From the IMG/VR virus record IMGVR_UViG_3300045935_000065, positions 1-45,556 of that record: DNA of 45,556 nucleotides. One strand, written 5' to 3'. Each line of letters starts with the position of its first letter. The stretch's first letter is position 1. Below the pieces are notes generated by a model that was not told the DNA's origin, did no database searches, and worked only from the letters and a program-made list of their open reading frames with translations. A program made the position numbers and the translations under genes. Below, in pieces: positions 4,104 through 43,210 of the stretch. This DNA comes from a virus.

Positions 4104-6565
4104 GCTTGAAGAACTGCATCCCAGGCCTGATCGCCGATGGCAAAATCCGCAAGGGCGATGGCGAGAAGGCGCAGCGCGCCTATGACCGGCACCTTGCCCG
4201 CGTCTCTCACGAGATGTCGCCTGAGGCGGCAGCAGCCGAGGCGAGCCGCCTGACCTTGCACGAACTTAAATATGAGCATGACCTCAAGCGCCGGCAGACC
4301 TTCCTGCAACTTAGCGCCCAGCAGCGGATGAAGGCTGACATGGAGAGGTACAAAGGCAGTCCCTATCGCGCCGCCTCGGCCCTGCTCGGCAGTGATGCCA
4401 AGGCACCCTATGCCAGCGTCGAGGCACAGCACCGGGCCGTGCTCGGCCGCATCCACGGACGGATGGAGGGCGTGCTCGCCGCGCACAGCCGCAATCTGCT
4501 CGGCGAGGCGCGGGACAAGGCCGGGCTTGCCGACCTGGTGCGCGAGCGCTTCGGCGAGGACACGGGCAATCGATCGGCGAAGGAACTGGCGGCGGCGTTC
4601 GGCGAGGCCGCCGAATATGCGCGGACCCGGTTCAACCGGGCCGGCGGCAACATTGGTCAGCGGCCCGATTGGGGGCTTCCGCAGGCACACGATGCGTCGA
4701 AGGTGCGCGCCGTGCCTTACGAGGAGTGGCGCAACGATATCACCGGCAAGGGGTCGACCGGCGAAGGCATCGATCTCAGCCGCATGATCGACGACTCCAC
4801 CGGCCAACCCTTCACGCCCGTGGGGATCGAAGAGGCGCTGCAATCCTCCTGGCAGTCGATCCGCAGCGATGGCTGGATTCGCCGCAAGCCGGGCGGGGCC
4901 GGCGACGGGAAGCTCGGCAACCAGCGCGCCGATCACCGCTTCTTCGTCTTCAAGAATGCCGATGCCTGGCTCGGCTATCAGGCTAAATATGGCACAGGCA
5001 ATGCCTTCGAGGCGATGGTGGGCCATGCCGAGGGGATGGCGCGCGACATCGCATTGATGGAGGTGCTCGGGCCCAACCCCAAGGCTAGCGTTAAATGGCT
5101 GCAGGATGCCGTGCAGAAGCGCGCGGCGATCGACCCGGAACCGGGTGGCGCGCTGATGGACAAGGCGCGGAGCGAATCGCAGCGGATCGGCGATTTATAC
5201 GACGTCGTCTCAGGCAGGCTCAACTCGCCGGTGAACGAACGGGCGGCGCGGACCTTGGGCGGGGTGCGGAGTTTTCTGACCTCGACCCTGCTCGGCTCGG
5301 CGCAGCTTTCGGCATTCTCCGACGTCGCCTTCCAGGCGGTGACGCGCGGCTATAACGGCCTGCCGGTCATGGGCGCGATCACCGGCTATCTGAAACTGTT
5401 TTCGGTGCTCGGCGGCGCGGAGCGCAAGCGGGTCGCGGTGCGGCTCGGCCTGATCGCCGAGGAGGCGGGCCGGCGCGCGGCGAGCCTCAATCGCTATGTC
5501 GACGGCACGCACGGGCCGGAGGTGATGAGCCGGCTCGCCGACGCCGTGCTGCGCGTGTCGGGGCTGAGCCCGTGGACGCAAAACGGCCGCTGGGCGTTCG
5601 GCATGGAATTGTTCGGCCATCTCGCCGACGAGCGGAGCAAAGACTGGGATGCGCTTGACGCACCGATCCGCTCGATGTTCGAGCGCTACGGCATCGACCA
5701 GGCCGGCTGGAATCAGATCCGCGCGTCCGAGCCCTATCGCTATACCGACAAGAGGTGGGGCACCTCCGAGTTCCTGCGCCCCGACGACGTCGCCGACGAG
5801 AAGCTCGGCGACGCGATGCTGCGCATGGCGCTGACCGAGACCGATTATGCGGTGCCGGCGGCGACGGCGCGCGCGCGCGCGGCATTGAGCTTCGGCCAGC
5901 GGCCGGGCACTCTGGGCGGCGAGATCATCCGCAACGGCGCCCTGTTCAAGAGCTTCGGGGTTTCGATGCTGCTCACCCACGGCGCGCGGATGATGGAGGG
6001 CACGCCGTGGAGCCGGGCCAAATATTTCGCGGGGCTGACCATCACCACCGGCCTGCTCGGCTATCTGGGTGAGAGCCTCTATGCGCTGGCGACGGGCAAG
6101 GATTTGCCCGATCCGACCGCGCCGGTGACGTGGGGCAAGGCGGAGCTGCGCGGCGGCGGCTTCGGCATTTTCGGCGACTTCCTCGGCTCCTCGACCAACC
6201 GCTTCGGCGGGGGCTTTGCCGAGACGCTGAGCGGGCCTGTGGTCGGCGCCGCGAGCGACGTCGCCCGCGCGGGCTACAAGGCGGTTGGGCACCGCGACGC
6301 CCGCACCGGGGAATGGGTCAGCAATCCGGGCGGCGCGGGCATGGACCTGTTCCGGCGCTATGTGCCGGGGGAATCGCTCTGGTATTCGCGGCTGGCGTGG
6401 AACCGCTATGTCGCCGACCAGCTCCAGCAGTGGGCCGACCCGAATTACGCGCAGAGCTGGGCGCGGATGGAGCGGGCCGGGCAACAGCAGGGGCAGGATT
6501 ATTGGTGGCGGCCGGGGCAAGGCGCGCCGGATCGGGCGCCTAATGTCGGGCGGGTGCCGGAGTAG
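4100..6565 (+). CDS. Large virion/ejection protein
   Basis: 821 aa, starting at the ATG that overlaps the previous stop (ATGA). An in-frame ATG 33 nt upstream is less likely. The N-terminal half is helical and charged. The C-terminal third (roughly residues 600-760) contains GALFKSFGVSMLLTHG, then one or two hydrophobic segments (YFAGLTITTGLLGYLG) and a Gly-rich GFGIFGDFLGSS stretch. I recall that pattern from large phage ejection or polyvalent proteins (LPD38-type). It may insert into the host membrane as part of the DNA translocation channel. That function is inferred from position after the transglycosylase protein and from the hydrophobic region. Confidence 0.7.
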   Translation: MSLKNCIPGLIADGKIRKGDGEKAQRAYDRHLARVSHEMSPEAAAAEASRLTLHELKYEHDLKRRQTFLQLSAQQRMKADMERYKGSPYRAASALLGSDAKAPYASVEAQHRAVLGRIHGRMEGVLAAHSRNLLGEARDKAGLADLVRERFGEDTGNRSAKELAAAFGEAAEYARTRFNRAGGNIGQRPDWGLPQAHDASKVRAVPYEEWRNDITGKGSTGEGIDLSRMIDDSTGQPFTPVGIEEALQSSWQSIRSDGWIRRKPGGAGDGKLGNQRADHRFFVFKNADAWLGYQAKYGTGNAFEAMVGHAEGMARDIALMEVLGPNPKASVKWLQDAVQKRAAIDPEPGGALMDKARSESQRIGDLYDVVSGRLNSPVNERAARTLGGVRSFLTSTLLGSAQLSAFSDVAFQAVTRGYNGLPVMGAITGYLKLFSVLGGAERKRVAVRLGLIAEEAGRRAASLNRYVDGTHGPEVMSRLADAVLRVSGLSPWTQNGRWAFGMELFGHLADERSKDWDALDAPIRSMFERYGIDQAGWNQIRASEPYRYTDKRWGTSEFLRPDDVADEKLGDAMLRMALTETDYAVPAATARARAALSFGQRPGTLGGEIIRNGALFKSFGVSMLLTHGARMMEGTPWSRAKYFAGLTITTGLLGYLGESLYALATGKDLPDPTAPVTWGKAELRGGGFGIFGDFLGSSTNRFGGGFAETLSGPVVGAASDVARAGYKAVGHRDARTGEWVSNPGGAGMDLFRRYVPGESLWYSRLAWNRYVADQLQQWADPNYAQSWARMERAGQQQGQDYWWRPGQGAPDRAPNVGRVPE

Positions 6566-7055: not shown

Positions 7056-7132
7056 TGGTGCACCCGGCAGGACTCGAACCTGCGGCCTTCGGGTTCGGAA
7101 CCCGACGCTCTATCCAGCTGAGCTACGGATGC
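7056..7132 (-). tRNA. tRNA-Arg(CCG)
   Basis: Complete 77-nt cloverleaf on the minus strand with an encoded CCA end. The acceptor arms GCATCCG/CGGGTGC pair with one G-U. The anticodon arm TCGGG-TTCCGAA-CCCGA gives anticodon CCG, which reads CGG. The T arm contains GGTTCGAGTCC. CGG codons are common in this GC-rich genome, so the tRNA could support late translation. It could also be a trace of a past tRNA-site integration, but the integrase gene is 6 kb away. Confidence 0.95.
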
Positions 7133-13341: not shown

Positions 13342-13547
13342 CAGAACGGCACCTCCATCACGTCGTAGCCGTGGCTTTCGAGCCAGCGGATGAAAAGCTC
13401 GGCAACGAGATCAGGTCGCCCGATCGACAATTCGTTCGTCCTCGATTCGATGTCGAAGCCGCGGGAATCGCGTAGCCAGACGTCTTCATCATCGCTGACC
13501 AGGCTCAACTCCAGGCCCTCAACGGCAACCTCGACTTGCCCGCTCAT
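13341..13547 (-). CDS. Small acidic hypothetical protein
   Basis: 68 aa, start ATG overlapping the integrase stop (ATGA). Alternating beta strands (QVEVAVEGLELSLVSDDEDV) and a C-terminal helix (LVAELFIRWLESHGYDV). Function unknown; an excision or anti-defence accessory role is possible from its place next to the integrase, without further evidence. Confidence 0.55.
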   Translation of the reverse strand: MSGQVEVAVEGLELSLVSDDEDVWLRDSRGFDIESRTNELSIGRPDLVAELFIRWLESHGYDVMEVPF

Positions 13548-14836
13548 CCTCGCTCCTCCTGCTCGGCCGCATCCGCGGCGTCCCGCTCCGCCTGCCGCGT
13601 CACGGCGATCGCCATGCCTTCGGCGGCGGCGCGGGTGTCGCGGGGCATGTAGGTGTCGAGGATTTTCTGGGTTTCCTCGATCGAATGGCCGGAGATGCTG
13701 GCGATCAGCGGCACGGGCACGTGCAACTCGCGCAGCCAGCACATGCCGGAGCGGCGCAGATCGCGGAACTGGATGGCGCTGTTCTTCTTGCCCTCCTCGC
13801 CCCCCAGCAGCTTCGCCAGGGCATGATCCTGCCGCGCGGCGGCGTCCAGGGCCGCCTTGTTCGCGACGGCCCTGAAATCGCGCTGGAAACGCCATTCGGG
13901 GCATGGGCGATCCTCATGCCGGTAGAGGATCAGATGGGTGCAGCCGGCCTTGCGGTCGCGGCTGGCGGCGAGCTGGGCGATGACGGCGGCGCGGGCGACG
14001 GGCGCGAGGCTGACCGCGACCCATTCGCCGGTCTTCTCCTGCTGGAGCCACAGGCCGCTGACCTTGCCGTCCGGGCCGGCGAGCGCGCGCCGCGCATCCG
14101 AGCTGACGTCGCCGACCTCGCGGATCTGGAAGCCGGTGGACGAGAGCAGATCGCCCTCGCGCTGCATCGAATAGAAGCCGAGCACGCAGCCCAATGCGAT
14201 ATGGGGAAAATCGAGATCGGCGGCGGCCGTGAGCAGGGGCGCGAGCTGATCGCGCAGGATGCGGCGGGTGCGCTTGGGCGGCGTCGGGATCTTCAGCTTG
14301 CGCGCCGGCGAGCCGGCGATCAGCCCCTTGTCCTCGGCGAACTGGAGCAGGAGGGAGAGGACGCGAAGCAGGGAGGCGGTGCGTGGCGGGCGGTTGTCGT
14401 GATTGACCAGGGTGTCGCGCAAATCGATCACCATCTGGCGATCGAGATCGGAAAGGATCAGATTGCCGTCGTCGGCCCAGATGGTGAGCGTCTTGATGCT
14501 CGAATCATATTCGGCGCGGCTCTTCGGCTTGAGTGCGAGATAGCGGCGATCGGCCTTGTAGGCGGCGACCAGGTCGCGCCAGCGGGCCCGGCCTGCGCCA
14601 AGGCTTCGGCGGGCAAGGGCGGCGGGGGCTATGGCACTGCCTTCGGCGCGGGCGCGGTCCCAGGCCTCGACCTCGTCGTTGCGCTCGAGCGCGGCGAGGA
14701 TGGCGGCGCGGCGATCCTCGCCGAGCGTGAGCAGCTTCCAGCCAGCTTCGCGCAGACGCGGGCTCGGCTGCCAGTAATAAGCGGTGCGGCCGCCCGCGAG
14801 CGCCTGCGTGGTGAGGAAGGGGATTTGATTAGCCAT
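13544..14836 (-). CDS. int: Tyrosine recombinase (phage integrase)
   Basis: 430 aa. The N-terminal ~95 residues form an arm-binding region, residues ~100-180 a SAM-like core-binding domain and ~195-415 the catalytic domain. Likely active-site residues: Arg226 (in MQREGDLL), Lys268 (QQEKTG), Arg358/Arg361 (FRDLRRSG, with Arg in place of the first His), His384 (SGHS) and nucleophile Tyr396 (LDTYMPR). It catalyses integration and, with an excisionase, excision. An interspersed palindromic repeat (14591-14617) lies inside the coding sequence as ARRSLGAGRA. The four downstream genes overlap or nearly overlap. It marks the phage as temperate; attP was not located. Confidence 0.93.
   Translation of the reverse strand: MANQIPFLTTQALAGGRTAYYWQPSPRLREAGWKLLTLGEDRRAAILAALERNDEVEAWDRARAEGSAIAPAALARRSLGAGRARWRDLVAAYKADRRYLALKPKSRAEYDSSIKTLTIWADDGNLILSDLDRQMVIDLRDTLVNHDNRPPRTASLLRVLSLLLQFAEDKGLIAGSPARKLKIPTPPKRTRRILRDQLAPLLTAAADLDFPHIALGCVLGFYSMQREGDLLSSTGFQIREVGDVSSDARRALAGPDGKVSGLWLQQEKTGEWVAVSLAPVARAAVIAQLAASRDRKAGCTHLILYRHEDRPCPEWRFQRDFRAVANKAALDAAARQDHALAKLLGGEEGKKNSAIQFRDLRRSGMCWLRELHVPVPLIASISGHSIEETQKILDTYMPRDTRAAAEGMAIAVTRQAERDAADAAEQEERG
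14591..14617 (-). repeat. Repeat A copy inside the integrase gene
   Basis: A copy of the GCC(A/G)AGGC(T/A)(T/A)CGGCGG(A/G)CAAG palindrome family found at nine places in the genome. Here it encodes a linker between the N-terminal and core-binding parts of the integrase. Confidence 0.8.
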
Positions 14837-15696: not shown

Positions 15697-16409
15697 TTCG
15701 CCGCCTTGGCGGTGGCTGGTTTCGGCAAAGCGGGGAGGCGCAAAGGCTTGGGCTGCGCTTCAGCCAGCCAGAGGATCAGGCGATCGAACTGCCAGGCCTC
15801 GAACTCCTTACGGGCCGCAGCCCGCGCAGCCCGCGCATCCCACGCAGCCCGCGCATCCCACGCAGCCCGCGCAGCCCGCGCAGCCCACGCAGCCCGCGCA
15901 TCCCACGCATCCCGCGCATCCCACGCAGCCCGCGCAGCCCACGCAGCCCACGCATCCCACGCATCCCACGCAGCCCACGCAGCCCGCGCAGCCCGCGCAG
16001 CCCACGCAGCCCGCGCATCCCGGCTGATCCGCCCCCATTCCTCCTCCGAAATCTTGCCGGCGAGGAAGTCGGTGGTCGCCTTGATGGCGAGCCTGGGACG
16101 CTGATCGTCGGGCCATCTTTGCTCGAAGATCGGCAGCACCTTGATCGCGCAATCGTTGAGATAGCCGGTCAAGCGCCGGGCGACGGCCTCGTCGCTCATG
16201 GCGATTGCCGAGGCGACCCAGATCACGTCGCTATAGGTGCAGCCCGCCTCCCGCGCCGCCGCTGCGTTGAAGCAGTAGGAAGGGTCGCAGTTCAGGCGGC
16301 GAAGCGCAACGCGGACGCGCTTTCCATCGCCCGCGCAGGGCTTGAACTCACGAAGCTCGCCGACGGTGATGCATAGTTTCGGCGCGGTGGCAGCCTGGGC
16401 AACGCCCAT
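15693..16409 (-). CDS. Imm-5-like domain protein with a 23-unit [W/R][A/D]A repeat
   Basis: 238 aa. Residues ~1-85 include several Cys and a helical segment. Residues ~87-128 ([20 protein letters not shown], then AIKA and LAGKIS) match what I recall of the Imm-5-like 'putative immunity protein' family. Residues 130-198 are 23 consecutive tripeptides, each W or R, then A or D, then A, which would give a Trp- and Arg-striped helix. The last 40 residues are Lys/Pro-rich. No toxin gene is adjacent. It may be an anti-defence or host-protective protein; that is speculation. The repeat makes the length prone to change by slippage in steps of three residues without frameshift. Confidence 0.7.
15816..16022 (-). 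repeat. Tandem 9-bp repeat, 23 units
   Basis: 207 bp of perfect-phase 9-mers, coding strand (T/C)GG G(C/A)T GCG, with only two variable bases per unit. All four combinations occur in a non-periodic order. The array has no stop in any reading frame. It is inside the Imm-5-like gene and is not a CRISPR: units are contiguous with no spacers. Confidence 0.95.
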
Positions 16410-18008: not shown

Positions 18009-18025
18009 TGTAACAATCTGTTTCA
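18009..18025. promoter_or_regulatory. Repressor operator, leftward side (TGTAACAATCTGTTTCA)
   Basis: TGTAAC-N5-GTTTCA differs by one arm base from the perfect palindrome at 18497. It lies 30 nt upstream of the excisionase-like gene start, where a repressor would block the leftward operon promoter. Confidence 0.65.
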
Positions 18026-18070: not shown

Positions 18071-18445
18071 TTAAGCGTGCCGGCGCTCCCGCGCGGGCAG
18101 CGGCGACGGCGCGATCAGATCGGCCATGGCGTTCAGCTTCTCGCGCGTGGCGGGATCGGCGGCGCGCCAGCGGTTGACCCATGCCTGCTCATCAGGCGAG
18201 AGGCTGGCCTTGTTGTCCTCGGGCAAAAGGAGATCGCCGGGCGCGCAGCCGAACACGGCGGCGAAGCGCCTCATATAGCCGAGGGTAAGCTGGGTGACGC
18301 CGCGCTCGAGCTCCGAGATGTTGACGTGGCTCGTCCCCATCAGCTCGCCGAGGTGGCTTTGCGACCAGCCACGCTGGGTTCGGAATTCCCGAATGCGGTT
18401 GGGATCATCGCTCATCGGCGCGAATTTTAGGATGACGGCCGACAT
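18071..18445 (-). CDS. CI-like repressor (XRE family)
   Basis: 124 aa. A helix-turn-helix lies at about residues 18-70: IREFRTQRGWSQSHLGELMG, then TSHVNISELERG and LTLGYMRRFAAVFG. The C-terminal third is short and helical, with no peptidase (LexA-type) domain, so induction is unlikely to be by RecA-stimulated self-cleavage. It is divergent from a Cro-like gene across a 17-bp palindrome. The start at 18445 was chosen over the internal Met at residue 11 because a GGGGA lies upstream; neither site is ideal. Confidence 0.85.
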   Translation of the reverse strand: MSAVILKFAPMSDDPNRIREFRTQRGWSQSHLGELMGTSHVNISELERGVTQLTLGYMRRFAAVFGCAPGDLLLPEDNKASLSPDEQAWVNRWRAADPATREKLNAMADLIAPSPLPARERRHA

Positions 18446-18496: not shown

Positions 18497-18513
18497 TGTA
18501 ACCATTTGTTACA
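18497..18513. promoter_or_regulatory. Immunity-region operator (perfect palindrome)
   Basis: TGTAAC-CATTT-GTTACA, perfect arms with a 5-bp spacer, in the 77-bp gap between divergent repressor and Cro-like genes and only 9 nt before the Cro-like ATG. Related sites occur at 18009, 18043, 27566 and 27591. It most likely binds the CI-like and/or Cro-like protein. Confidence 0.8.
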
Positions 18514-18859: not shown

Positions 18860-19042
18860 ATGGGCTTGGGGGAAAGAATCCTGTGGCTCTGCGGCTTCCT
18901 CGCCGTGGCGGCGGCGCTCGCGCGGCTTGGCGACTGGCTGATCGGCGGGTGGCGCGAGATCGAGGCGCTGGACGAGCAGGAGGGCAAGCCGCCGTTCGGA
19001 TCGCCGCGCTGGGTGCGCGACATGCGGGAGAATGTGGAATGA
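18860..19042 (+). CDS. Small membrane-anchored protein
   Basis: 60 aa with one N-terminal hydrophobic helix (ILWLCGFLAVAAALARLGDW) and an acidic, soluble tail. It starts one base after the Cro-like stop and overlaps the next gene (ATGA). Function unknown. Confidence 0.6.
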   Translation: MGLGERILWLCGFLAVAAALARLGDWLIGGWREIEALDEQEGKPPFGSPRWVRDMRENVE

Positions 19043-19263
19043 CCCGCCTTCGCCAAGGCTCCGGCGGGCAAGCCCTGGCCACGCGATCGGCTGCGTCGCG
19101 CAAGGCGTGGGAGACGCGGCGGCGGATGGCGGAGCTTCGCGACGCGCTCGCCGGCGGGCCGCCGATGCCGGCGCCGGAGCAGGGCAGCGCGCAGCTTCCC
19201 AAGATCGACATGTCGATTCCGGCGATCCTAGCGCGGCTCAAGGCGGCGGGGGTGGGGCAGTGA
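19039..19263 (+). CDS. Small basic early protein
   Basis: 74 aa. The N-terminus (MTRLRQGSGGQAL) is encoded by a repeat A copy, so the gene's start region was created or overwritten by that element. The rest is helical and basic (SRKAWETRRRMAELRDAL) and ends in a helix (PAILARLKAAG). The next gene's GTG overlaps its stop. Confidence 0.55.
   Translation: MTRLRQGSGGQALATRSAASRKAWETRRRMAELRDALAGGPPMPAPEQGSAQLPKIDMSIPAILARLKAAGVGQ
19042..19072 (+). repeat. Repeat A copy at the 5' end of an early gene
   Basis: The palindrome starts one base after the ATG of the 19039 gene and encodes its residues 2-11 in a frame (LRQGSGGQ) different from other coding copies. Confidence 0.8.
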
Positions 19264-19727
19264 AGATCGTCCCGCTCACCCTTCGCGCCGCGAACGACTT
19301 CGTCGAGCAGCACCACCGGCATAGTGCGCGCACTTCGAACGACGGCGGCAAGTTCGCGATCGGGCTGGAGGTTGGGGGGGCAATCGTTGGCGTCGCCATC
19401 GTCGGCCGTCCCGTTGCCCGGCTGCTGCAGCGCGAGGGCACGGCCGAGATCACCAGGCTGTGCGTCTCCGCCGCCGCTCCGCGCAATGCATGCTCGCGGC
19501 TCTATGGGCGCGCCAAACGGATTTGGCAGCTCATGGGTGGTGACCGCATCATCACCTATACCCTGACCAAGGAGAGCGGCGCGTCGCTCCGCGCCGCCGG
19601 CTTCGCGGCGATCGCGCCGGTCAAGGTCGAGCGCTGGTCGCGCCGCGGCCGCGTTCGCACCGCCAAGGCGATCGAGGATCAGCCGAAGATGCGCTGGGCG
19701 GCGGCCTTAGAGCAAGTTCCGGCCTGA
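19260..19727 (+). CDS. XF1762-family (GNAT-like) protein
   Basis: 155 aa from a GTG that overlaps the upstream stop. Family-type sequence: NDFVEQHHRHS near the N-terminus, then KFAIGLEVGGAIVGVAIVGR, EITRLCVSAAAPRNACSRLYG and YTLTKESGASLRAAGF. The fold resembles N-acetyltransferases. These proteins are common in phage early regions, but their substrate is not known to me. It probably acts in the cytoplasm early in infection. Confidence 0.75.
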   Translation: MKIVPLTLRAANDFVEQHHRHSARTSNDGGKFAIGLEVGGAIVGVAIVGRPVARLLQREGTAEITRLCVSAAAPRNACSRLYGRAKRIWQLMGGDRIITYTLTKESGASLRAAGFAAIAPVKVERWSRRGRVRTAKAIEDQPKMRWAAALEQVPA

Positions 19728-19730
19728 CCC

Positions 19731-20876
19731 ATGGCCGCCCGCACCGATCTCACCGCCAACGAAATCGAGCGGCAGCTGCGCGCCGCGGTCGATGCGATCG
19801 TGCCGAAATTGTTCGGATCGGCGGCGAAGCTGGACGGGCCTTACTGGACGCTCGGCAACGCACACGGCGATCCGGGCACGCAGATGAAGATCAACCGCGA
19901 GGTGCGGCCCGGCCTGTGGTGCGATTTCTCGGCGCCGGAGGGGGCGGACGATTATTCGGGCGACATGCTCAAGCTGATCGCCGCCAGGCTCTACGGCGGC
20001 TGGTCGATGCCCGATGCCAAGAAGAGCGCGATCGCCTGGGCGAAATGGGCGCTCGGCCTCGACGACGTCGCCCCGGATCAGGCGCGCGAGATCAAGCGCC
20101 AGACCGCCGAGCGTGCGAAGGCGATCGACGAGGAGGCCGAGGCGGCGAAGCAGGGCCGGCGCAAGAGCGCCTGGTCGATGTACAACGGCGCCACACCGAT
20201 CGCCGGCACGCCGGCTGAGACCTATCTTGCCGGGCGCGGCATCGCGCCGGCCCTGCTCGGCAAATATCCGGGCGCGCTGCGCTACCTGCCGAACTGCGCC
20301 GACAAGATCAGGGGCGGCAAGCATCCGGCGATGATCGCGGCGATCATGGGGCTCGAGGGCAAATTGCTCGGCGTGCATCGCACCTATCTGGACGTCTCCG
20401 CCGGCAAAGGCGGCTCGGTGCCCGTCGTGAAGCTCCCGCCCGACCCGAAAGGGCGGCGCAAGAGCCACAAATTGAGCCTGGGCGATTACAAGGGCGGCTG
20501 CATACCGCTATGGAAAGGATCGTCGCCGGCCACGCTGCGCGAGATTCCACGTGGAACACCGGTCTATGTCAGCGAAGGGATCGAGGACGGGCTGACCATC
20601 GCCCTCGCCTTTCCCGACCGGCGCGTCGTCGCCGGGGTGGCGCTGGCCAATATGGGCGGGCTGATCCTGCCGCCGCAGGCCGGGCCGTTGATCTTCATCG
20701 GCCAGCGCGACCCGATCGGCGGCAAGGCGCTGGAAGCCTTCGAGCGCGCGGTGGCGCGCCAGCAGGAGCAGGCCGCGGCGCAGGGGCGGCCGATGCCGCA
20801 AATCATCTGGCCCGAGGAAGGCTATAAGGACTTCAACGACCAGCTGCGCGGGATCCGGATGGCGGAGGCGGCATGA
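19731..20876 (+). CDS. Toprim-domain DNA primase-like protein
   Basis: 381 aa. The N-terminal ~110 residues form the first domain, without a zinc-binding Cys set. Residues ~130-240 match the DUF7146-type middle region (TPAETYLAGRGI; LLGVHRTYLD). The toprim domain at ~270-360 has VYVSEGIEDGLTIALAFPDR with a conserved Glu. The usual DxD is degenerate (IFIGQRDP). It would make primers for replication together with the helicase-type ATPase encoded at 21671. A TTCCACGTGGAACA sequence lies in the coding region at 20543-20558. Confidence 0.8.
   Translation: MAARTDLTANEIERQLRAAVDAIVPKLFGSAAKLDGPYWTLGNAHGDPGTQMKINREVRPGLWCDFSAPEGADDYSGDMLKLIAARLYGGWSMPDAKKSAIAWAKWALGLDDVAPDQAREIKRQTAERAKAIDEEAEAAKQGRRKSAWSMYNGATPIAGTPAETYLAGRGIAPALLGKYPGALRYLPNCADKIRGGKHPAMIAAIMGLEGKLLGVHRTYLDVSAGKGGSVPVVKLPPDPKGRRKSHKLSLGDYKGGCIPLWKGSSPATLREIPRGTPVYVSEGIEDGLTIALAFPDRRVVAGVALANMGGLILPPQAGPLIFIGQRDPIGGKALEAFERAVARQQEQAAAQGRPMPQIIWPEEGYKDFNDQLRGIRMAEAA
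20543..20558. other. parS-like sequence in the primase gene
   Basis: TTCCACGTGGAACA matches 14 of 16 bases of the palindromic ParB site TGTTCCACGTGGAACA; only the first two bases differ. Confidence 0.4.
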
Positions 20877-23799: not shown

Positions 23800-23807
23800 G
23801 GGAATTA

Positions 23808-23960
23808 TCAAGATGACTTCCGATCACTCTGAAATTCCTTCTTGGCTTGGCGCTTTAATCGGCGAGCGATTTTCTGCGCGGCGAGGCCCTTATCCACAGG
23901 GCGATGGGCGAGGACGCGGGCGGTTACGGCGTCCAGGATCGCACGGATTTTCTCGCTCAT
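23808..23960 (-). CDS. IS1595-associated small basic protein
   Basis: 50 aa: MSEKIRAILDAVTARVL, a central PVDKGLAAQKIAR, then a Lys/Arg-rich tail. The same protein (43 aa version) follows the transposase in element B, so it travels with these transposons. Its stop is 8 bases inside the element end, and its ATG overlaps the upstream stop (ATGA). Possibly a DNA-binding accessory of transposition; inferred. Confidence 0.65.
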   Translation of the reverse strand: MSEKIRAILDAVTARVLAHRPVDKGLAAQKIARRLKRQAKKEFQSDRKSS

Positions 23961-24127
23961 GATCCCCTCCGATATGGACAGCGAAGCTCGCAATCCTCGC
24001 TCCCTGCGGCCTCGCAAAAGCCGTCCGGCCCCATGTGGCAGTCGAACGTCTCTTCCTCCATCCATGTCGGGACGTAGGGCGTGTTGTCGCCGGGGCCTTG
24101 GTAAATGTCGCTCACTGGGCCTGGCAT
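23957..24127 (-). CDS. Small acidic Cys-containing passenger protein
   Basis: 56 aa, acidic (PTWMEEETFDCHMGPDGFCE; then GSEDCELRCPYR) with four Cys in a DC-x7-C-x7-C-x3-C pattern that could hold a metal. It overlaps the zinc-ribbon gene upstream and the 50-aa gene downstream by 4 nt. No counterpart in element B. Confidence 0.55.
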   Translation of the reverse strand: MPGPVSDIYQGPGDNTPYVPTWMEEETFDCHMGPDGFCEAAGSEDCELRCPYRRGS

Positions 24128-24294
24128 GTTGATGTCCTCTCATTATGATCGCGGATCGCTTGCCGGATATTGCCCGCACCCGGCCCGAGATAATGGCATT
24201 TGTCGCACTCGACGTGCTTCCACCCGTTCTCATAGCCGTACACCGCTACGTCGGGATTTCCGCACTTGCATGGCTTCATCTTCGGATAGGTCAT
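24112..24294 (-). CDS. Lar-like zinc-ribbon passenger protein
   Basis: 60 aa with KPCKCGNPDVAVYGYENGW, then HVECDKCHYLGP: two CxC/CxxC knuckles around short strands, as in the Lar restriction-alleviation family of small phage proteins. The start overlaps the transposase stop (ATGA). Restriction alleviation is only a family-based guess; the gene may simply be a cargo from another phage. Confidence 0.6.
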   Translation of the reverse strand: MTYPKMKPCKCGNPDVAVYGYENGWKHVECDKCHYLGPGAGNIRQAIRDHNERTSTCQAQ

Positions 24295-25211
24295 GCGATC
24301 AACTCCTTATAGGTGAGCCGCTGGCCTATCGCGGCAGCGAACAGGCTGGCGAGGCGGTCCATCGTATGATGCTTCACGTCGCCCTCATTGAGCCGGAAGG
24401 CGAACTCGCCGACATAGCGGTGCAGATGCTTGGGGCTGACGTGGTGATAGACGCCGTGGATGCCCCGCTTGAGGACGGCAAAGACGCTCTCAATGCCGTT
24501 CGTGGTCACGTTGCCCCGGCGATACTCCCCGAGGCCGTGATTGATCGTCTCGTGCTTGTAGATCAGGCCATTGAGCCGATTGTAGATCGCGCTTTCGTCG
24601 GTGTGTACCGTCGATCCGGCAGCGATGTTGCGATAGGCAAAGCCGGTTGCGGTGCGCCGCGTGACGGTCGCCGGAACCTCTGCCCGAACGCGCCCGCTCT
24701 CGCGCTCTCTGGCGGCGATTACAGCCGTCTTGCCGATGCTGCCACGGCCAAGGCCGAGCCGCTTGGATTGGTGCTTCGCGTCCTCTTTCCCGCCGACATA
24801 GGTTTCGTCGATTTCCACGACGCCCGCCAGTTCGGTCGGATCATTCCCGCAAGCCTCGCGGAGCCGCGCCAGCACGAACCAGGCTGTGGGCTGAGAGACG
24901 CCGATTTGCTTGGCAAGCTGGAGGCTGGAGATGCCTTTGCGGGCCGTGACGAGCAGATACATGGCATAGAGCCACTTGTGCAGCGGCACCTTGGAGCGCT
25001 CGAAAATGGTCCCGGTGCGGACGGTGAAAACCGACAGGTCCGCATTGCAGCGATAGTAGCCCGCGCCCTTGTCGTAGATGCGCTTCGCCTCGCCACAGGC
25101 CGGACAGACAGGGCCGTCCGGCCAGCGCTTCGTCTCGAAATAGGCGCGGGCGCTGTCCGCGTCCGGGAACATCTGGAAGAGTTCGAATGTACTGATGGTG
25201 GATTTGCTCAT
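24291..25211 (-). CDS. IS1595-family transposase (element A)
   Basis: 306 aa. A zinc-ribbon-like segment (CPACGEAKRIY...YRCN) lies at residues 36-56, with the usual fourth Cys absent. HTH ISSLQLAKQIGVSQPTAWFV is at ~95-114. The ISXO2/IS1595 DDE domain contributes Asp135 (VVEIDETYVGGK), Asp205 (HTDES) and Glu241 (GIESVFAVLKRG). The frame is intact and overlaps its neighbours by 4 nt on both sides. Clearly homologous to the 305-aa enzyme of element B but not identical, so the two elements are distinct family members and not copies of each other. Confidence 0.95.
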   Translation of the reverse strand: MSKSTISTFELFQMFPDADSARAYFETKRWPDGPVCPACGEAKRIYDKGAGYYRCNADLSVFTVRTGTIFERSKVPLHKWLYAMYLLVTARKGISSLQLAKQIGVSQPTAWFVLARLREACGNDPTELAGVVEIDETYVGGKEDAKHQSKRLGLGRGSIGKTAVIAARERESGRVRAEVPATVTRRTATGFAYRNIAAGSTVHTDESAIYNRLNGLIYKHETINHGLGEYRRGNVTTNGIESVFAVLKRGIHGVYHHVSPKHLHRYVGEFAFRLNEGDVKHHTMDRLASLFAAAIGQRLTYKELIA

Positions 25212-25543
25212 GCGAAGGCCTCCGGGTCGATCAACTGGCCATATTCATCATACCCTTCCATGGTCGGCAACACGGCGTTCAGGAAGTCCTCTACGGCGGC
25301 TTGGCCCTTCGTGACGGGCCTCGCCTTCTTCTTCTTCTCGGTCAGTTCGAAGAGGCGTCGGGTCAGGCGCTCCTTACGGGCATCCAGATCGTCAAGCTGC
25401 CGCATGATGTCCCACGCCTCGCGATCATCCGTATCCTTGTACTCGCTGTTGCCGGCCGCGCAGGTCAGGCGCTCGTTGCGGACGATATGCTCCGAAGGGC
25501 ATTTGCCGCAGTGGCGGCAGACCAGAGGAGGTGCCTTTTTCAT
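25208..25543 (-). CDS. Zinc-knuckle/coiled-coil passenger protein upstream of transposase
   Basis: 111 aa starting at MKKAPP with GGAGG upstream. The N-terminal CRHCGKCPSE plus a later Cys suggest a zinc site. Residues ~45-80 form a charged coiled coil (DDLDARKERLTRRLFELTEK). The C-terminus is acidic. It is four bases from the previous stop and overlaps the transposase start (ATGA). Possibly a regulator or partner of the transposase; not recognised. Confidence 0.6.
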   Translation of the reverse strand: MKKAPPLVCRHCGKCPSEHIVRNERLTCAAGNSEYKDTDDREAWDIMRQLDDLDARKERLTRRLFELTEKKKKARPVTKGQAAVEDFLNAVLPTMEGYDEYGQLIDPEAFA

Positions 25544-25544
25544 G

Positions 25545-25772
25545 TCAGCCCTCCAATTCGTCAGGGTGGCAACCGATGTCGGCGGCCTCGTCCATTCGGG
25601 CGAGGGCATCGGCGAGAACTTCCGGCGCTGCGCCCGTCCGCTGGGCACATTCGATTACGGCGAGAAGCCGATCACGTTGGCCCATATTCAAGCCGCGATA
25701 GGTGTTCCAAATGCGCCGCGCGTGCGTCTGCACTTGGTTAAGGTGGTCGGTAACTTCGGTTGGCAGTTGCAT
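25545..25772 (-). CDS. Small helical passenger protein
   Basis: 75 aa, helical (DHLNQVQTHARRIWNTYRGL), preceded by GGGAG. First gene of the element A series, 88 bp from the right terminal repeat, so the element's promoter should lie in 25773-25860. Function unknown. Confidence 0.55.
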   Translation of the reverse strand: MQLPTEVTDHLNQVQTHARRIWNTYRGLNMGQRDRLLAVIECAQRTGAAPEVLADALARMDEAADIGCHPDELEG

Positions 25773-25860
25773 CTCAAATCTCCCTCAAAACCACAGGGTT
25801 ATCCCCATGGCCATAAGGTGTCTACCCGACCACAGATCGGACGTCAACTTTATAATTCCC

Positions 25861-26282: not shown

Positions 26283-26945
26283 CTACAATCCGGCCTCAAC
26301 CGCCAGCCGGATTGCCTCCGCCGTGCCGATGCCGAGCCGCGCGAGCAGCCGGGCGCGATGCATCCGCACGGTGGACAGGCTGAGGCCCAGCGCCCGTGCG
26401 ATCGCCTTGTCGACCAGGCCCTGCGCCATCAGCGCCAGCACCTGGCGCAAGCGGCCGGGCAGGGCGGCGACCATGGCATCGGCGCGGGCGCGGCGATCGG
26501 CCGGGAAGGCCGAGACGTCGACCTGACTGCCCAGGAAGAAAGCGAGCGCGCCGGCTTCATCGTGGATCGGCGACACGGTGACCGCGTTGAGGAAGGGCAG
26601 ACCATCGGCGCGGTAATTGATCACGCTGACGCTTGCCGGGGCCGCACGGGACACGGCATCGCGCAGCTGCGCCACTGCGCCTTCATTGCTCGCCAGGCCC
26701 TGCAGCAAGCGGCAATTGCGGCCCTGGGCCTGCTCGGCCGAATAGCCGGTGAGCCGGCAGAAGGCGGCGTTGACGGCGACGATCGGATTGTCGGGAAGAT
26801 CCGGATCGGTGATCAGAAAGGCGGTGGAGCTGCGGCCGATCAGGTCGACGAGCCTGGCGTGCTGGCGGTGCTTGAGCATCGGGGCCAGTGGCACGGCCGC
26901 GATGAACGCGCAATTGCTAAACATATGTAAGATTTGGGAAAGCAT
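26283..26945 (-). CDS. Blue-light LOV-domain / LuxR HTH transcription factor (EL222-like)
   Basis: 220 aa from the ATG at 26945 (a start at 27002, overlapping a parS-like sequence, is possible; neither has a good ribosome site). Residues ~30-130 are a PAS/LOV domain: DNPIVAVNAAFCRLTGYS, then GRNCRLLQG with the flavin-adduct Cys at about 78, INYRADGLPFLNAVTVSPI and LAFFLGSQVDV. Residues ~160-220 are a LuxR/GerE HTH (ALMAQGLVDKAIARALGLSL, then STVRMHRARLLARLG). The order and the FLGSQV ending match EL222 of Erythrobacter, where light forms a Cys-flavin bond, releases the HTH and allows dimeric DNA binding. All key LOV residues are present, so light sensing is likely; target genes are unknown. 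A hairpin at 27004 separates it from upstream genes. Confidence 0.9.
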   Translation of the reverse strand: MLSQILHMFSNCAFIAAVPLAPMLKHRQHARLVDLIGRSSTAFLITDPDLPDNPIVAVNAAFCRLTGYSAEQAQGRNCRLLQGLASNEGAVAQLRDAVSRAAPASVSVINYRADGLPFLNAVTVSPIHDEAGALAFFLGSQVDVSAFPADRRARADAMVAALPGRLRQVLALMAQGLVDKAIARALGLSLSTVRMHRARLLARLGIGTAEAIRLAVEAGL

Positions 26946-26985
26946 GGGTGGGCGGAGCGGTTTGGAGGGCGGACGGGGCGCGCAG

Positions 26986-27001
26986 GCTTCCACGTGAAAC
27001 A
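26986..27001. other. parS-like sequence before the LOV-HTH gene
   Basis: TTCCACGTGAAACA matches 14 of 16 bases of a consensus ParB site; the first two bases differ. It lies in the leader of the LOV-HTH gene, or at the start of its longest possible frame. Confidence 0.4.
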
Positions 27002-27003
27002 TG

Positions 27004-27043
27004 GCACCGCCGCCGAGCTGGTGGCTCGACGGCGGTGCTTTTT
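27004..27043 (+). terminator. Strong intrinsic terminator-like hairpin
   Basis: 15-bp arms (27004-27018 and 27024-27038, one mismatch) with a 5-nt loop and TTTTT on the plus strand. On the minus strand it lies between the 61-aa gene and the LOV-HTH gene and could insulate the latter from the leftward operon. Confidence 0.65.
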
Positions 27044-27085
27044 GCCGCGGCTGGAGGGGGGGGCGCCGCGGCCGGGGAAGGACTT

Positions 27086-27565: not shown

Positions 27566-27582
27566 AGTAACAGTTTGTTACA
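27566..27582. promoter_or_regulatory. Operator of the distal leftward unit (AGTAACAGTTTGTTACA)
   Basis: Same AGTAAC/TGTAAC-N5-GTTACA architecture as 18497-18513, with one arm base changed. It lies directly before the 69-aa gene. Confidence 0.7.
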
Positions 27583-27590
27583 TCAATTAA

Positions 27591-27607
27591 GGTAACAAAT
27601 CACGTCA
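27591..27607. promoter_or_regulatory. Second operator of the distal leftward unit (GGTAACAAATCACGTCA)
   Basis: Matches the reverse complement of 18043-18059 at 15 of 17 bases. Spacing of about 25 bp from the neighbouring site resembles tandem repressor operators. Confidence 0.6.
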
Positions 27608-27886
27608 TGTCAACAGATTTATTTCGTCTTTGGTTACAGGCTCTTACGCCTCAAACGCAAGCGGGCAGGCGTGGCGAAGCCGCGCCGGTGCGCCCGCTTT
27701 CCATCTGCATTTCCTTGGCTTGGCTGCCTCGATCCGCCATCCCATCCCGGCCGCACCACTGGCCCGGACCCGTGATTTGCAAGCAGCAATTGAGGCCGGT
27801 TCGCGCCTGCGACTGTGGGTCAGGGGAGTTCCCTGCTATTTTCCGGCTCTTTGCGCTAAGTTGCTGTATTGACTTCGATAATCCCC
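27608..27886. other. Intergenic segment without a credible gene
   Basis: Open frames here lack ribosome sites and have unusual composition. It leads into a repeat cluster. TTTGGTTACAGG at about 27628 is a further operator half-site-like sequence. I see nothing else. Confidence 0.5.
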
Positions 27887-28088
27887 TGTTCCCGCGGTCC
27901 CGTTCCCGACTGGTCACCGTCGCATGCGCGCGCTATGGCGCTCGATGCGCGAGCCTCACGCGCGCACGAGGCAAGCGGGAACACCGGGAACATGCGCCTT
28001 CTTACCTCTCTATCCTATTGGTATAGATAGATTAGTTTGTTCCCGATTGGCTCGGTTGGGCCGTTCCCAGCAACATTCGGCGGGAACA
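27887..28088. repeat. Cluster of seven CGGGAACA/CGTTCCCG-type repeats: candidate origin or control region
   Basis: TGTTCCCG at 27887 and 28038, CGTTCCCG at 27901, CGGGAACA at 27976, 27985 and 28081, and CGTTCCCA at 28062. Copies occur on both strands within 202 bp, with a less GC-rich stretch between (28005-28040, TATCCTATTGGTATAGATAG). This looks like iterons of a replication origin or sites for a regulator. Confidence 0.6.
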
Positions 28089-28920
28089 TAAGCCGTTGAT
28101 CTTGCGCCCATATTTCGGGATATGTTACAGCCAGCGGCCATGGGCGGTGATCATTCCGGGTTTTGGAATAAAATAGGGGCCGGATATCCGCGCACCCTGC
28201 GCCGGACGGGCGTCAGGCGGGCGGGGGGCGGCGGTCCTGGGGAATTTCGGCGGCGGAGCTCGGCGCCGATCGGTGGCGCTGCCGGCCTCGAGCTGGGCCT
28301 GGTCGGGGGCCCGGGCGCGGATCTCGGGTGGATTGGCCGGCTTCAACGAAATCAAGGGCTTAGCTACGCCGCGGCGGGCGGCGTCGCATGGCGGCCGTCC
28401 TATGGGCAGGCGCAAGCCATTGATCGGGGGGCGGATTCGGAGGCGCGTCGTCTAATCGCCAATTTGACGGAGGGTCGCTGCGAGCTGGGCGGCCTGGTCG
28501 CCGGCGGCGGGCGGATCGGGAGGGCCTCGCGGCCTGGCCGCGGCCGGCCGGCCTCGATCGCGCGACCCCCCTTTCCCCCTTTCGGCCGATCGGCGCCCGC
28601 TCCGGGGGTCGCGTTCGGCGGAGCTGGCATCTGTGAAAATTCGATCCGCCTTCGCCAAGGCTTCGGCGGACAAGGCCAGCGCCGGCCAATCGGCGGTGCT
28701 CTGGCCTGTTTGAGCAAGCGGTTGGGCCGCGCACTTTCCAAATCGCAAAACGGATCGGGGTCCGGGCGGTTCTTCCACCCCTGCCAAATGGGGTCGGGGG
28801 TTCGGGAGCCGCGCGCGGGGCAATGCGCCGGCGGGCTAGAGGGCCGCGCCGGGGAGCGTGCTGCGATCGGGTTGGGGCATGAGAGGCTGGCGCCTTTCGT
28901 GGAGCGAATCGGGCGAGGCT
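28089..28920. other. Long GC-rich region without an assignable gene
   Basis: About 830 bp. Several long open frames on both strands have low-complexity Arg/Pro/Gly-rich translations with no ribosome site. A minus frame ending QAAQLAATLRQIGD at 28452, and another at 28125-28415, could be degraded genes. ATGTTACA at about 28122 resembles an operator half site. A repeat A copy lies at 28643-28674. It may be a leader, an origin flank or decayed coding DNA. Confidence 0.4.
28643..28674 (+). repeat. Repeat A copy, intergenic
   Basis: Full-length GATCCGCC...GGCGGACAAG palindrome within the geneless region before the small terminase gene. Confidence 0.85.
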
Positions 28921-29892: not shown

Positions 29893-29966
<74 letters not shown>

Positions 29967-29988
29967 CCGAACCTTCGCCGCGCGAGCG

Positions 29989-29996: not shown

Positions 29997-30025
29997 GGGA
30001 ATTATATACATGAGTGCTGATCCCT

Positions 30026-30157
30026 CTAGTCATCGGCCTTCGCCTTGCGCTTCAATTTGCGGGCGGTTTTCTTCGCGGCGAGGCCCTTATCCACAGGGCG
30101 ATAGGACAGCACTTTGGCCGTCACGGCGTCGAGGATGGCCCGGATTTTCTCACTCAT
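30026..30157 (-). CDS. IS1595-associated small basic protein (element B copy)
   Basis: 43 aa: MSEKIRAILDAVTAKVLSY, then PVDKGLAAKKTARKLKRKAK. Clearly homologous to the 50-aa protein of element A. The ATG overlaps the transposase stop (ATGA). Conservation in two otherwise diverged elements argues for a role in transposition or its control. Confidence 0.68.
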   Translation of the reverse strand: MSEKIRAILDAVTAKVLSYRPVDKGLAAKKTARKLKRKAKADD

Positions 30158-31071
30158 GCGATCAGTTCCTTGTAGGTGAGCCGCTGCCCGATGCTGGCGG
30201 CGAACATGCTGGCGAGACGGTCAAGCGTGTGGTGCTTCACGTCGCCTTCGTTGAGCCGGAAAGCGAACTCGCCGACATAGCGGTGCAGATGCTTCGGCGT
30301 GACGTGGTGATAAACGCCGACGATCCCGCGCTTCATGACCGCGAAGACGCTCTCGATCCCGTTCGTGGTGACGTTGCCGCGCCGGTATTCGCCCGCGCCA
30401 TGGTTGATCGCCTCGTGCGTGTAGTAGAGGCCACCGACGCGCCGATAGCCGCCCGCTTCGTCCGTGTGGACGGTCGAGCCGTATTCGATATGGCGGTGCA
30501 TGAAGCGGAGGATCGTGCGGGTGCTGGCATTGGGAACAACCGCCGCCTTCATCCGGCCCCCGCGCTCGCGAGCCGCCATAACGGGCGTCTTGCCGCCCGC
30601 GCCGCCGCCGACGCTGAGCCGCTTGGACAGGTGCTTCGCGTCCTCGCGCCCGCCGATGTAGGTTTCGTCAATCTCGACAATGCCGGAGAGCTTCGACGGG
30701 TCGTTGCCGCAAGCCTCACGAAGGCGCTGGAGCATGAACCAGGCCGTCTTTTGAGTGACGCCGATCTGCTTGGCGAGCTGGAGGCTGGAGATGCCTTTGC
30801 GGGCCGTGACGAGCAGGTACATGGCATAGAGCCACTTGTTGAGCGGGATCGGGCTCCGCTCGAATATCGTGCCGGTGCGGACGCTGAAAACCGACAGGTC
30901 CGCATTGCAGCGGTAGAGCCCGCCGCCCTTGGCATAGATGCGCTTCGTCTCGCCGCAAGCGGGGCAGACCGGGCCTTCGGGCCAGCGTTGCCCTTCGAAA
31001 TAGATGCGCGCCGACTCGGCGTCGGGGAACATCTGGAAAAGCTGGAAGGTGCTGATCGTGGACCGGCTCAT
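30154..31071 (-). CDS. IS1595-family transposase (element B)
   Basis: 305 aa with the same layout as the element A enzyme: zinc-ribbon-like CPACGETKRIY, HTH ISSLQLAKQIGVTQKTAWFM, and DDE residues Asp135 (IVEIDETYIGG), Asp at ~204 (HTDEAGG) and Glu at ~240 (GIESVFAVMKRG). The frame is intact. The region between the first and second Asp is the most different from element A. Confidence 0.95.
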   Translation of the reverse strand: MSRSTISTFQLFQMFPDAESARIYFEGQRWPEGPVCPACGETKRIYAKGGGLYRCNADLSVFSVRTGTIFERSPIPLNKWLYAMYLLVTARKGISSLQLAKQIGVTQKTAWFMLQRLREACGNDPSKLSGIVEIDETYIGGREDAKHLSKRLSVGGGAGGKTPVMAARERGGRMKAAVVPNASTRTILRFMHRHIEYGSTVHTDEAGGYRRVGGLYYTHEAINHGAGEYRRGNVTTNGIESVFAVMKRGIVGVYHHVTPKHLHRYVGEFAFRLNEGDVKHHTLDRLASMFAASIGQRLTYKELIA

Positions 31072-31421
31072 GATTCGCGCCTCACTTCGCCAATCTCGAC
31101 CGGCTCCTTGCCGCTGGGCCGAAGGGCGCTCTCCGGCGCGATGTACGGCGTCGGATCACCCTCATTGACCAGAATGTATCGGATGTGCCCGGTCGTTTTC
31201 GTGATCATCAGTGGCCGGGCTTCGCCCAGCAAATCCGCGAGCGCATATTCGCCGGGGAAGCCGGGCGGCACCGCGACAAGCACCACGGCCTCCGCTGGCA
31301 TATGCGCGGTGGCGCGGGCGCGGCTGACCTTGACGACATCGCCGGGCTTGAACACCGCCGACCCGCATTTCGGGGTTTCGCCGTGCCCTGCATCGTTAAC
31401 GAGTAAAATCGGATTGACCAT
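31068..31421 (-). CDS. Element B passenger protein, unknown
   Basis: 117 aa. The central beta-rich part (FKPGDVVKVSRARATA; AEAVVLVAVPPGFPGEY) suggests a small barrel, and the C-terminus is polar. First gene of the element B series, overlapping the transposase start by 4 nt, in the same position as the 111-aa gene of element A but unrelated in sequence. Function unknown. Confidence 0.6.
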   Translation of the reverse strand: MVNPILLVNDAGHGETPKCGSAVFKPGDVVKVSRARATAHMPAEAVVLVAVPPGFPGEYALADLLGEARPLMITKTTGHIRYILVNEGDPTPYIAPESALRPSGKEPVEIGEVRRES

Positions 31422-31510
31422 TTCAAATCGCCCTTTTCATCAAGCGGGTTATCCACATGACAAGAAGCTATCTACCCGATTGCGGTTCGGCAGTCAAGTA
31501 TATAAGTCCC

Positions 31511-42755: not shown

Positions 42756-43210
42756 TCTCCATCCTGCCCTACGAGCCCGCCCATCGCGCCATGCTGGTGG
42801 TGCAGCAGGCGCAGCGCGACGATCTCGACGTCTTCCGCCAGGCGGCGGGAATGATGGCGGAGCGCGGGCCGGCCTTCACCGCGGCCGAGGTGGACGAGAG
42901 CGGGGCGATCGTGCGGGTGCTGGGCTGCGCCGGGCTGGCCGAGAATGGGCCGGATTACGCGACGTGCTGGGCGGCGTTCGGCGATGGCCTGGCGCTGCGC
43001 GACTGGGCGGTGCTGGCGGCCGCGATCCGGCGGGTGATCGCCGCGAGCGTCTATGGGCGGATCGACCTGATCGTGCGGGGCGGGTTCGGCGCTGGCGAAC
43101 GCTTCGCGCGGCATCTCGGCTTCGTGCCCGATGCGACCATCTATCGGTATGTTCCACGTGAACCCGCCTTCGCCAAGGCTATGGCGGGCAAGTCGAGAAA
43201 GGCCGCTTGA
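42752..43210 (+). CDS. GNAT-like internal virion protein (gp13-like)
   Basis: 152 aa from a GTG overlapping the previous stop. A GNAT-type fold is suggested by RVLGCAGLAENGPDYATCWA and IDLIVRGGFGAGERFARHLG. In T7-like phages a protein of this kind follows the nozzle gene and assists core assembly. The C-terminal tail (PREPAFAKAMAGKSRKAA) is encoded by a parS-like sequence plus a repeat A copy, a late extension of the gene. Confidence 0.65.
   Translation: MISILPYEPAHRAMLVVQQAQRDDLDVFRQAAGMMAERGPAFTAAEVDESGAIVRVLGCAGLAENGPDYATCWAAFGDGLALRDWAVLAAAIRRVIAASVYGRIDLIVRGGFGAGERFARHLGFVPDATIYRYVPREPAFAKAMAGKSRKAA
43150..43165. other. parS-like sequence at the 3' end of the gp13-like gene
   Basis: TGTTCCACGTGAACCC, 14 of 16 bases of a ParB site, directly joined to repeat A. 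Confidence 0.35.
43162..43192 (+). repeat. Repeat A copy at the 3' end of the gp13-like gene
   Basis: Encodes the C-terminal PAFAKAMAGK. Confidence 0.8.

Follow-up and report, generated by a model that had tools for sequence, protein, structure and literature searches.

An apparently intact EL222-type LOV-LuxR gene in the accessory slot of a predicted temperate podovirus

The LOV-LuxR gene, its product and the genome that carries it

The window analyzed here, which is the whole 45,556-nt stretch of the IMG/VR virus record IMGVR_UViG_3300045935_000065, contains a minus-strand open reading frame (ORF) at 26283-27002 that encodes a LOV domain and, C-terminal to it, a LuxR/GerE helix-turn-helix (HTH); this ORF is a real coding sequence. 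The features of the locus are collected in Table 1. Both domains passed the curated Pfam cut-offs (PAS_9, E 3e-16; GerE, E 8e-10) and the blocks GRNCRLLQG, NYRADG, and FLGSQV were all found, which bears out the first-pass annotation in its description of a LOV domain with an adduct cysteine and a LuxR-type HTH in the order of EL222. Among all solved structures, EL222 was the best sequence match (8a5r, E 7e-44; 3p7n, E 1e-43), and the alignment spanned residues 51-239 of the 239-aa reading.

Table 1. Positions of the features at the locus and of the related features discussed in the text (window coordinates, except where L117, the second phage, is named)
Feature	Position	Strand	Evidence or remark
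LOV-LuxR gene, most likely extent	26283-26879	-	198 aa from ATG 26879; homologue starts, EL222 alignment from residue 51, GC
Longest ORF, same frame	26283-27002	-	239 aa from ATG 27002; N-terminal 41 residues of low model confidence
LOV domain	26508-26831	-	residues 58-165 of the 239-aa reading; Pfam, EL222 alignment, model
Flavin-adduct cysteine codon	26712-26714	-	C97 of the 239-aa reading, in GRNCRLLQG; aligns with the EL222 adduct Cys
LuxR/GerE HTH	26325-26453	-	GerE E 8e-10; recognition helix SLSTVRMHR vs SEKTVKMHR
Hairpin (27003-27039), then TTTTT on the plus strand	27003-27044	+	between the LOV gene and its upstream gene
ORF downstream of the LOV gene, 64 aa	25931-26125	-	no known family
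Slot gene upstream of the LOV gene, 61 aa	27086-27271	-	same-slot homologue in L145, 70% over 37 aa
First gene of the leftward slot cluster, 69 aa	27343-27552	-	homologues in the slots of relatives L165 (74%) and L137 (62%)
CI-type operator palindrome GTAACAGTTTGTTAC, perfect	27567-27581		at the slot promoter; further half site 27592-27597
Slot promoter, -35-like TTGACA	27608-27613	-	17-nt spacer, weak -10 TTAATT 27585-27590; read from sequence
Eight GGGAAC/GTTCCC sites, five of them CGGGAACA	27828-28087		within 260 bp, between slot promoter and TerS
CI-like HTH repressor	18071-18445	-	PHROG transcription-regulator families, best E 2e-11; same-place homologues in five relatives
Operator copy, 1 mismatch	18498-18512		divergent region upstream of the CI-like gene
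Operator copy, 1 mismatch	18010-18024		downstream of the CI-like gene
IS1, IS1595-family insertion	23800-25860	-	transposase NF033547 E 6e-59; terminal inverted repeats; 8-bp target duplication ATTGCGAG
IS2, second IS1595-family insertion	29997-31510	-	terminal inverted repeats; 8-bp target duplication TATCCTGA
LOV-HTH gene of the second phage	L117:4891-5484		start codon at 5484; product 51% identical to the window protein

The LOV residues listed in PMC4682037 (YtvA G59, N61, C62, R63, F64, L65, Q66, N94, N104, and Q123) are all kept in the window protein except F64, the Phe after NCR, which is Leu here and is a single, conservative change among the signature residues. An alignment with 27 sphingomonad LOV-HTH proteins indicated that N129, N139, and Q160 are retained and the Asn/Arg/Gln flavin pocket is intact, and the C-terminal dimerization helix AEAIRLAVEAGL of the HTH aligned with those of the homologues. 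The AlphaFold2 model (mean pLDDT 87, about 50 for residues 1-40) matched EL222 in both domains, which take up the closed arrangement of the dark state, with a TM of 0.85-0.91 normalized to EL222, as the proposed structural comparison anticipated. Since the model was built from an alignment of LOV-HTH homologues, which are EL222 relatives, it is no independent evidence. A library of viral protein models contained no structural relative with both a LOV and an HTH domain. Judged by its sequence, the gene is an apparently intact EL222-type LOV-HTH gene with the adduct cysteine, and its product is predicted to bind flavin and to bind DNA in a light-driven manner.

The true start is probably ATG 26879 rather than ATG 27002. 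The shorter start is preferred because chromosomal LOV-HTH homologues begin at the matching place, because the GC content at codon position 3 rises from 0.71 before residue 42 to 0.86 from that residue onward, and because of the low model confidence of the N-terminal residues. No clear ribosome-binding site was present at any of the start candidates, and the consensus scan found no recognizable promoter of the gene's own; the likely start has AT-rich sequence (26911-26943) ahead of it. The interval originally assigned to the gene, 26283-27043, contains a real ORF, but its outer part (27003-27039) is a hairpin of -31.6 kcal/mol (z -2.9 for the plus strand). As the T run follows on the plus strand only, with none after it on the minus strand, the hairpin looks like a terminator for rightward transcripts, and the earlier idea that it insulates the LOV gene gives way to a terminator-like element of the opposite strand. 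Three parS-like sites (20543-20558, 26986-27001, and 43150-43165) have at most two mismatches to the chromosomal ParB site TGTTNCACGTGNAACA, compared with 0.01 expected from shuffles, and the second of them adjoins the longer start codon, ATG 27002. Intact parS clusters were seen in sphingomonad genomes and none in related phages.

The record ends with a 123-bp direct terminal repeat and by this mark is the closed genome previously described, a complete-looking assembly whose virion is predicted from its genes. These include TerL, a head-tail adaptor, the major head protein, tail proteins, and an internal virion protein, as well as a phrog_1 integrase (13544-14836), a primase, and a replication protein with primase/helicase matches. 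By its gene content, the virus is a temperate podovirus with BcepC6B/HTVC010P-like structural genes and a short-tail module. Synteny was seen with a 43-kb virus record (TerL 64%) and with prophages of the host family that carries LOV genes, in which 9 of 399 genomes had a TerL match; homologues of both the integrase and the CI-like repressor occur in the prophages of G732, G737, G715, and G472. LOV-HTH genes were found in 116 of the same 399 genomes and also on named Sphingobium, Sphingomonas, and Novosphingobium plasmids. This family was read as sphingomonads because of its LOV-HTH matches, including those on the named plasmids, and the host is probably a sphingomonad.

Further features of the genome were recorded. 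For the gene at 19032-19727, a match to Mom-like DNA modification proteins (PHROG family, E 2e-30) was obtained, and its product probably serves counter-restriction. A 9-bp unit (CGCAGCCCR/CGCATCCCR) is repeated in tandem about 23 times at 15816-16022, and complete tRNA genes for tRNA-Arg(CCG) and tRNA-Met(CAT) lie at 7056-7132 (-) and 29893-29968 (+), respectively. A dispersed palindromic repeat of 27-39 nt, GCCTTCGCCAAGGCTTCGGCGGACAAG, occurs in at least six places, with starts at 14591, 19046, 28648, 33618, 38942, and 43166.

The accessory slot and its repressor-type operators

The LOV gene sits in a variable leftward slot between the helicase gene, which ends at 23704, and TerS, which starts at 28858. 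In the closer relatives, this slot measures 2.8-6.9 kb and contains mostly small leftward genes, with a BRO-N antirepressor and a MarR-like HTH in relative L028 and an ArdC antirestriction protein in relative G732. The LOV gene comes after two slot genes with homologues in the relatives and is itself without such a homologue. None of the 80 related terminase loci, 49 of which carry helicase and TerL on one piece, contained a LOV-HTH gene, so that the proposed search of related prophages for conservation ended with the gene absent from all closely related phages that were readable. One LOV-like match, at positions 1-1149 of relative L167, is a Cys-less PAS/LOV-like frame at the contig start that apparently joins the start of a GGDEF-like stretch to other sequence; it was set aside as likely host DNA, a junction, or a chimera at a contig edge.

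Insertion elements are rare in phages, and the window contains two of the IS1595 family, of which IS1 adjoins the LOV gene. They are independent insertions with perfect 8-bp target duplications, both at non-coding places, and only the transposase and one small gene are alike between them (77%-83% DNA identity), whereas the ends and the passenger genes differ. A composite transposon with the LOV gene as its cargo was rejected because the two elements differ in their ends, each is flanked by a separate target duplication, and neither includes the LOV gene.

The first-pass annotation placed the gene near operators of a CI-like repressor, and palindromes shared between the repressor region and the slot promoter were indeed found. 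With at most one mismatch, the palindrome GTAACANNNTGTTAC has three copies in the genome versus 0.00 per shuffle (100 shuffles), an optimistic figure in that the motif was derived from the copy at 27567, while the sites of the other two copies were not chosen. Outside the slot promoter, the palindrome flanks only the CI gene. The perfect copy at 27567 overlaps the slot promoter, just behind TTGACA-17-TTAATT and ahead of the GGAGG that precedes ATG 27552; the promoter was not flagged by the consensus scan. This is the layout of a repressor-controlled promoter, with the CI-like protein as its putative ligand. The palindrome was not conserved as a sequence in the relatives, and operator conservation therefore gives no support to the model.

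The operator at the slot promoter suggests that the LOV gene is expressed on infection or induction and not in a quiet lysogen. The earlier picture of a light-sensing lysogen fits poorly with such an arrangement, which suggests a LOV gene that is silent while the repressor is bound; since the hairpin separates the LOV gene from the promoter with the operator, a private LOV promoter is possible. The cluster of GGGAAC/GTTCCC sites beyond the slot promoter, which is the repeat cluster that the first-pass annotation linked to replication, is possibly an origin, packaging, or regulator site, and in the relatives these sites are not clustered as they are at 27828-28087.

A LOV-HTH gene in a second phage and the relationships of the proteins

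A LOV-HTH alignment scan of 2.9 million viral contigs revealed one further LOV-HTH gene, in IMGVR_UViG_3300049434_000096 (L117), and since the scan rests on a few peptide patterns, more such phage genes may exist. This second phage is temperate and siphovirus-like, with terminase, portal, capsid, DnaB, and integrase genes. None of the other window proteins tested had a detectable homologue in it, and the two phages are unrelated. The palindrome GACGGATNNATCCGTC occurs in it in four copies with at most one mismatch, two of which precede the start codon of its LOV gene (L117:5484) by 36 and 67 bp. The other two lie between the divergent small HTH-type genes at L117:3449-3685 and 3752-4198, apparently the immunity region of this phage, and the copies are putative repressor operators.

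In the second phage the adduct motif reads GRNPRFLQG, with Cys replaced by Pro, and since the Pro codon differs from that of Cys at two positions, the change is not one sequencing error. Cys-less LOV proteins can still signal by chemical or photo-reduction of the flavin, and there is one natural Pro case (PMC4682037). Both phage genes encode LOV-HTH proteins and adjoin repressor-type operators, with 51% identity between the products, but they differ in the phage that carries them, in the adduct residue, and in the operator sequence. The same protein type near repressor-type operators in two unrelated phages makes a one-off accident less likely. Absence of the gene from all related phages combined with reads indicating an assembly chimera had been named as the outcome that would speak against a phage gene; the gene was absent from the close relatives that were readable, and the unrelated second phage argues against a chimera.

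Nine further loci from the viral-contig scan encode kinases or multi-PAS sensors and were rejected as LOV-HTH genes. Two large records filed as viral, L127 (416 kb) and L128 (500 kb), carry LOV histidine kinase and receiver genes. LOV matches from Listeria "phages" were set aside, as they come from unannotated UNVERIFIED assembly contigs (one inspected) and are probably host genes of the YtvA type.

In all 27 of the 27 chromosomal homologues, the recognition helix starts with Glu, then Lys, Arg, or Gln, then Thr. The window protein has Leu-Ser-Thr and the second phage Val-Glu-Thr, so that the invariant first Glu is lost in both. The C-terminal dimer helix is present in both phage proteins, the residues with which the host family reads DNA are not, and we infer that the two proteins read other DNA than the host family does. 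The EL222 consensus RGNCYWWRGNCY was not enriched, with two genome-wide matches versus 1.25 expected, and no such site was located in the proposed targets or near the CI and slot promoters; the recognition helix of the window protein differs from that of EL222.

When 50 proteins were placed in a tree, the two phage rows fell outside the main chromosomal EL222 clade (99/94) on long branches, the end branch of the window protein being 1.16 changes per column, and both branched beside two cellular rows (L060 and L069). The two phage proteins need not be each other's closest kin. A phage-specific clade was rejected because the deep-branching L060 and L069 genes lie among ordinary cellular genes and not in prophages. 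The 399 host-family genomes contained no chromosomal gene above 54% identity to the window protein, and there is consequently no recent donor among them. A peptide-pattern scan of genome contigs returned only LOV-only or HTH-only relatives and no sphingomonad LOV-HTH, which is due to the patterns used.

Possible roles and comparison with known systems

We give about an even chance to the reading that the gene is an accessory gene of a temperate phage encoding a one-component blue-light LOV-HTH factor, through which light would act on the early development of the phage or on its take-over of the host. The gene would have been acquired by a temperate podovirus whose host is sphingomonad-like, and retained in the leftward slot that separates the early module (primase/helicase) from the late one (terminase). 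The slot would be off while the CI-like repressor is bound, and on infection or induction the repressor would leave, the slot would be transcribed, and the LOV protein would be made. The protein would then bind FMN, and blue light would form the flavin adduct at C97, releasing the HTH from the LOV sheet for dimerization and DNA binding. Because the recognition helix is changed, the targets would probably be sites of its own, at phage early or late promoters or host genes, rather than the EL222-type sites of the host; the CI region, the slot promoter, and the GGGAAC cluster at 27828-28087 are candidates only. The protein would thus act as a light input during early development and not as a sensor of the resting lysogen. 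In favor of this reading, the slots of the relatives vary and include other regulators and counter-defense genes. Against it stand the strong hairpin before the LOV gene, the lack of enrichment of EL222 consensus sites, the lost Cys of the second phage, and the absence of the gene from all near relatives, which may mean a recent acquisition. A broader proposal, possible but rather doubtful, is that temperate phages of sphingomonads took up LOV-HTH genes at least twice, wired them to their own repressor operators, and gave them a DNA specificity that is new, and that the choice between lysis and lysogeny would in this way be modulated by blue light or by the redox state of the flavin.

The lysogen is often the beneficiary of accessory genes carried in variable slots, and the gene could accordingly be one of lysogenic conversion, expressed in the prophage from its own promoter and altering the photo- or stress response of the host (pigment, DNA repair, general stress) to the benefit of the lysogen. 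The hairpin that parts the gene from the CI-type promoter, the AT-rich stretch before the likely start, and the frequency of LOV-HTH genes in host chromosomes and on sphingomonad plasmids all agree with this. However, the LOV gene has no recognizable promoter of its own, the LOV gene of the second phage lies directly behind repressor-type operators, and with its changed recognition helix the protein is less likely to share targets with the LOV-HTH regulon of the host; we consider such a conversion gene unlikely, though worth keeping in view. A factor that works independently of light or responds to redox or flavin state, or one that spoils the host LOV-HTH through mixed dimers, with light gating secondary or lost, is decidedly unlikely. 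The Pro at the adduct position of the second phage, the response of Cys-less LOV proteins to reduction (PMC4682037), and the retention in both phage proteins of the dimer helix without the DNA-reading residues of the host family would fit it, but the Cys, the Gln, and the flavin contacts are all retained in the window protein, and if the gene is not a recent acquisition, it is difficult to see why they would persist without the photocycle being used.

It is very unlikely that the gene is a chance passenger without function for the phage, be it a host gene that this one phage captured recently, through illegitimate recombination or through an IS, or an artifact of chimeric assembly. Its lack in near relatives, the two IS1595-family elements bracketing the region, and the long end branch could be read in this way. 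However, the separate target duplications, ends, and passengers of the elements leave the gene outside both and not as their cargo, its codon-position GC pattern is like that of phage genes, the flanking slot genes are common to relatives, and the contig closes on itself. The same gene type in an unrelated phage and the lack of a chromosomal gene above 54% identity in the host family also argue against a passenger.

Phages sense host SOS signals, peptides (arbitrium), and quorum-sensing autoinducers, and light would be a new class of phage input. To our knowledge, no phage encodes a light-sensing transcription factor; in agreement with the first-pass annotation, which knew of no characterized phage example, the open-access literature yielded no report of such a factor or of a light or flavin input to phage control. 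Preferring the reading of an early light input, we propose that phage gene control may take light or the state of the flavin as an input. The phage LOV-HTH proteins, with their changed recognition helix and one natural Cys-to-Pro case, could also provide parts for optogenetics.

Among known systems, EL222 of Erythrobacter litoralis (PDB 3P7N, 8A5R) is the nearest to the window protein, with the same domain order, about 44% identity over 190 columns, the adduct Cys, the conserved Asn/Arg/Gln pocket, the C-terminal dimer helix, and the superposition of both domains. Unlike EL222, the window protein is encoded by a phage, retains Gln in FLQ at a position occupied by Ala in EL222, carries the recognition helix SLSTVRMHR instead of SEKTVKMHR, and falls outside the main EL222 clade. 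LOV histidine kinases of the Brucella LOV-HK type likewise place a LOV domain on contigs filed as viral in IMG/VR, which may here be host flanks rather than phage DNA, but their output is a kinase and receiver. The BRO-N antirepressor of L028 occupies the same slot in the same orientation as the LOV gene, although antirepressors of this kind are without a known light-sensing domain.
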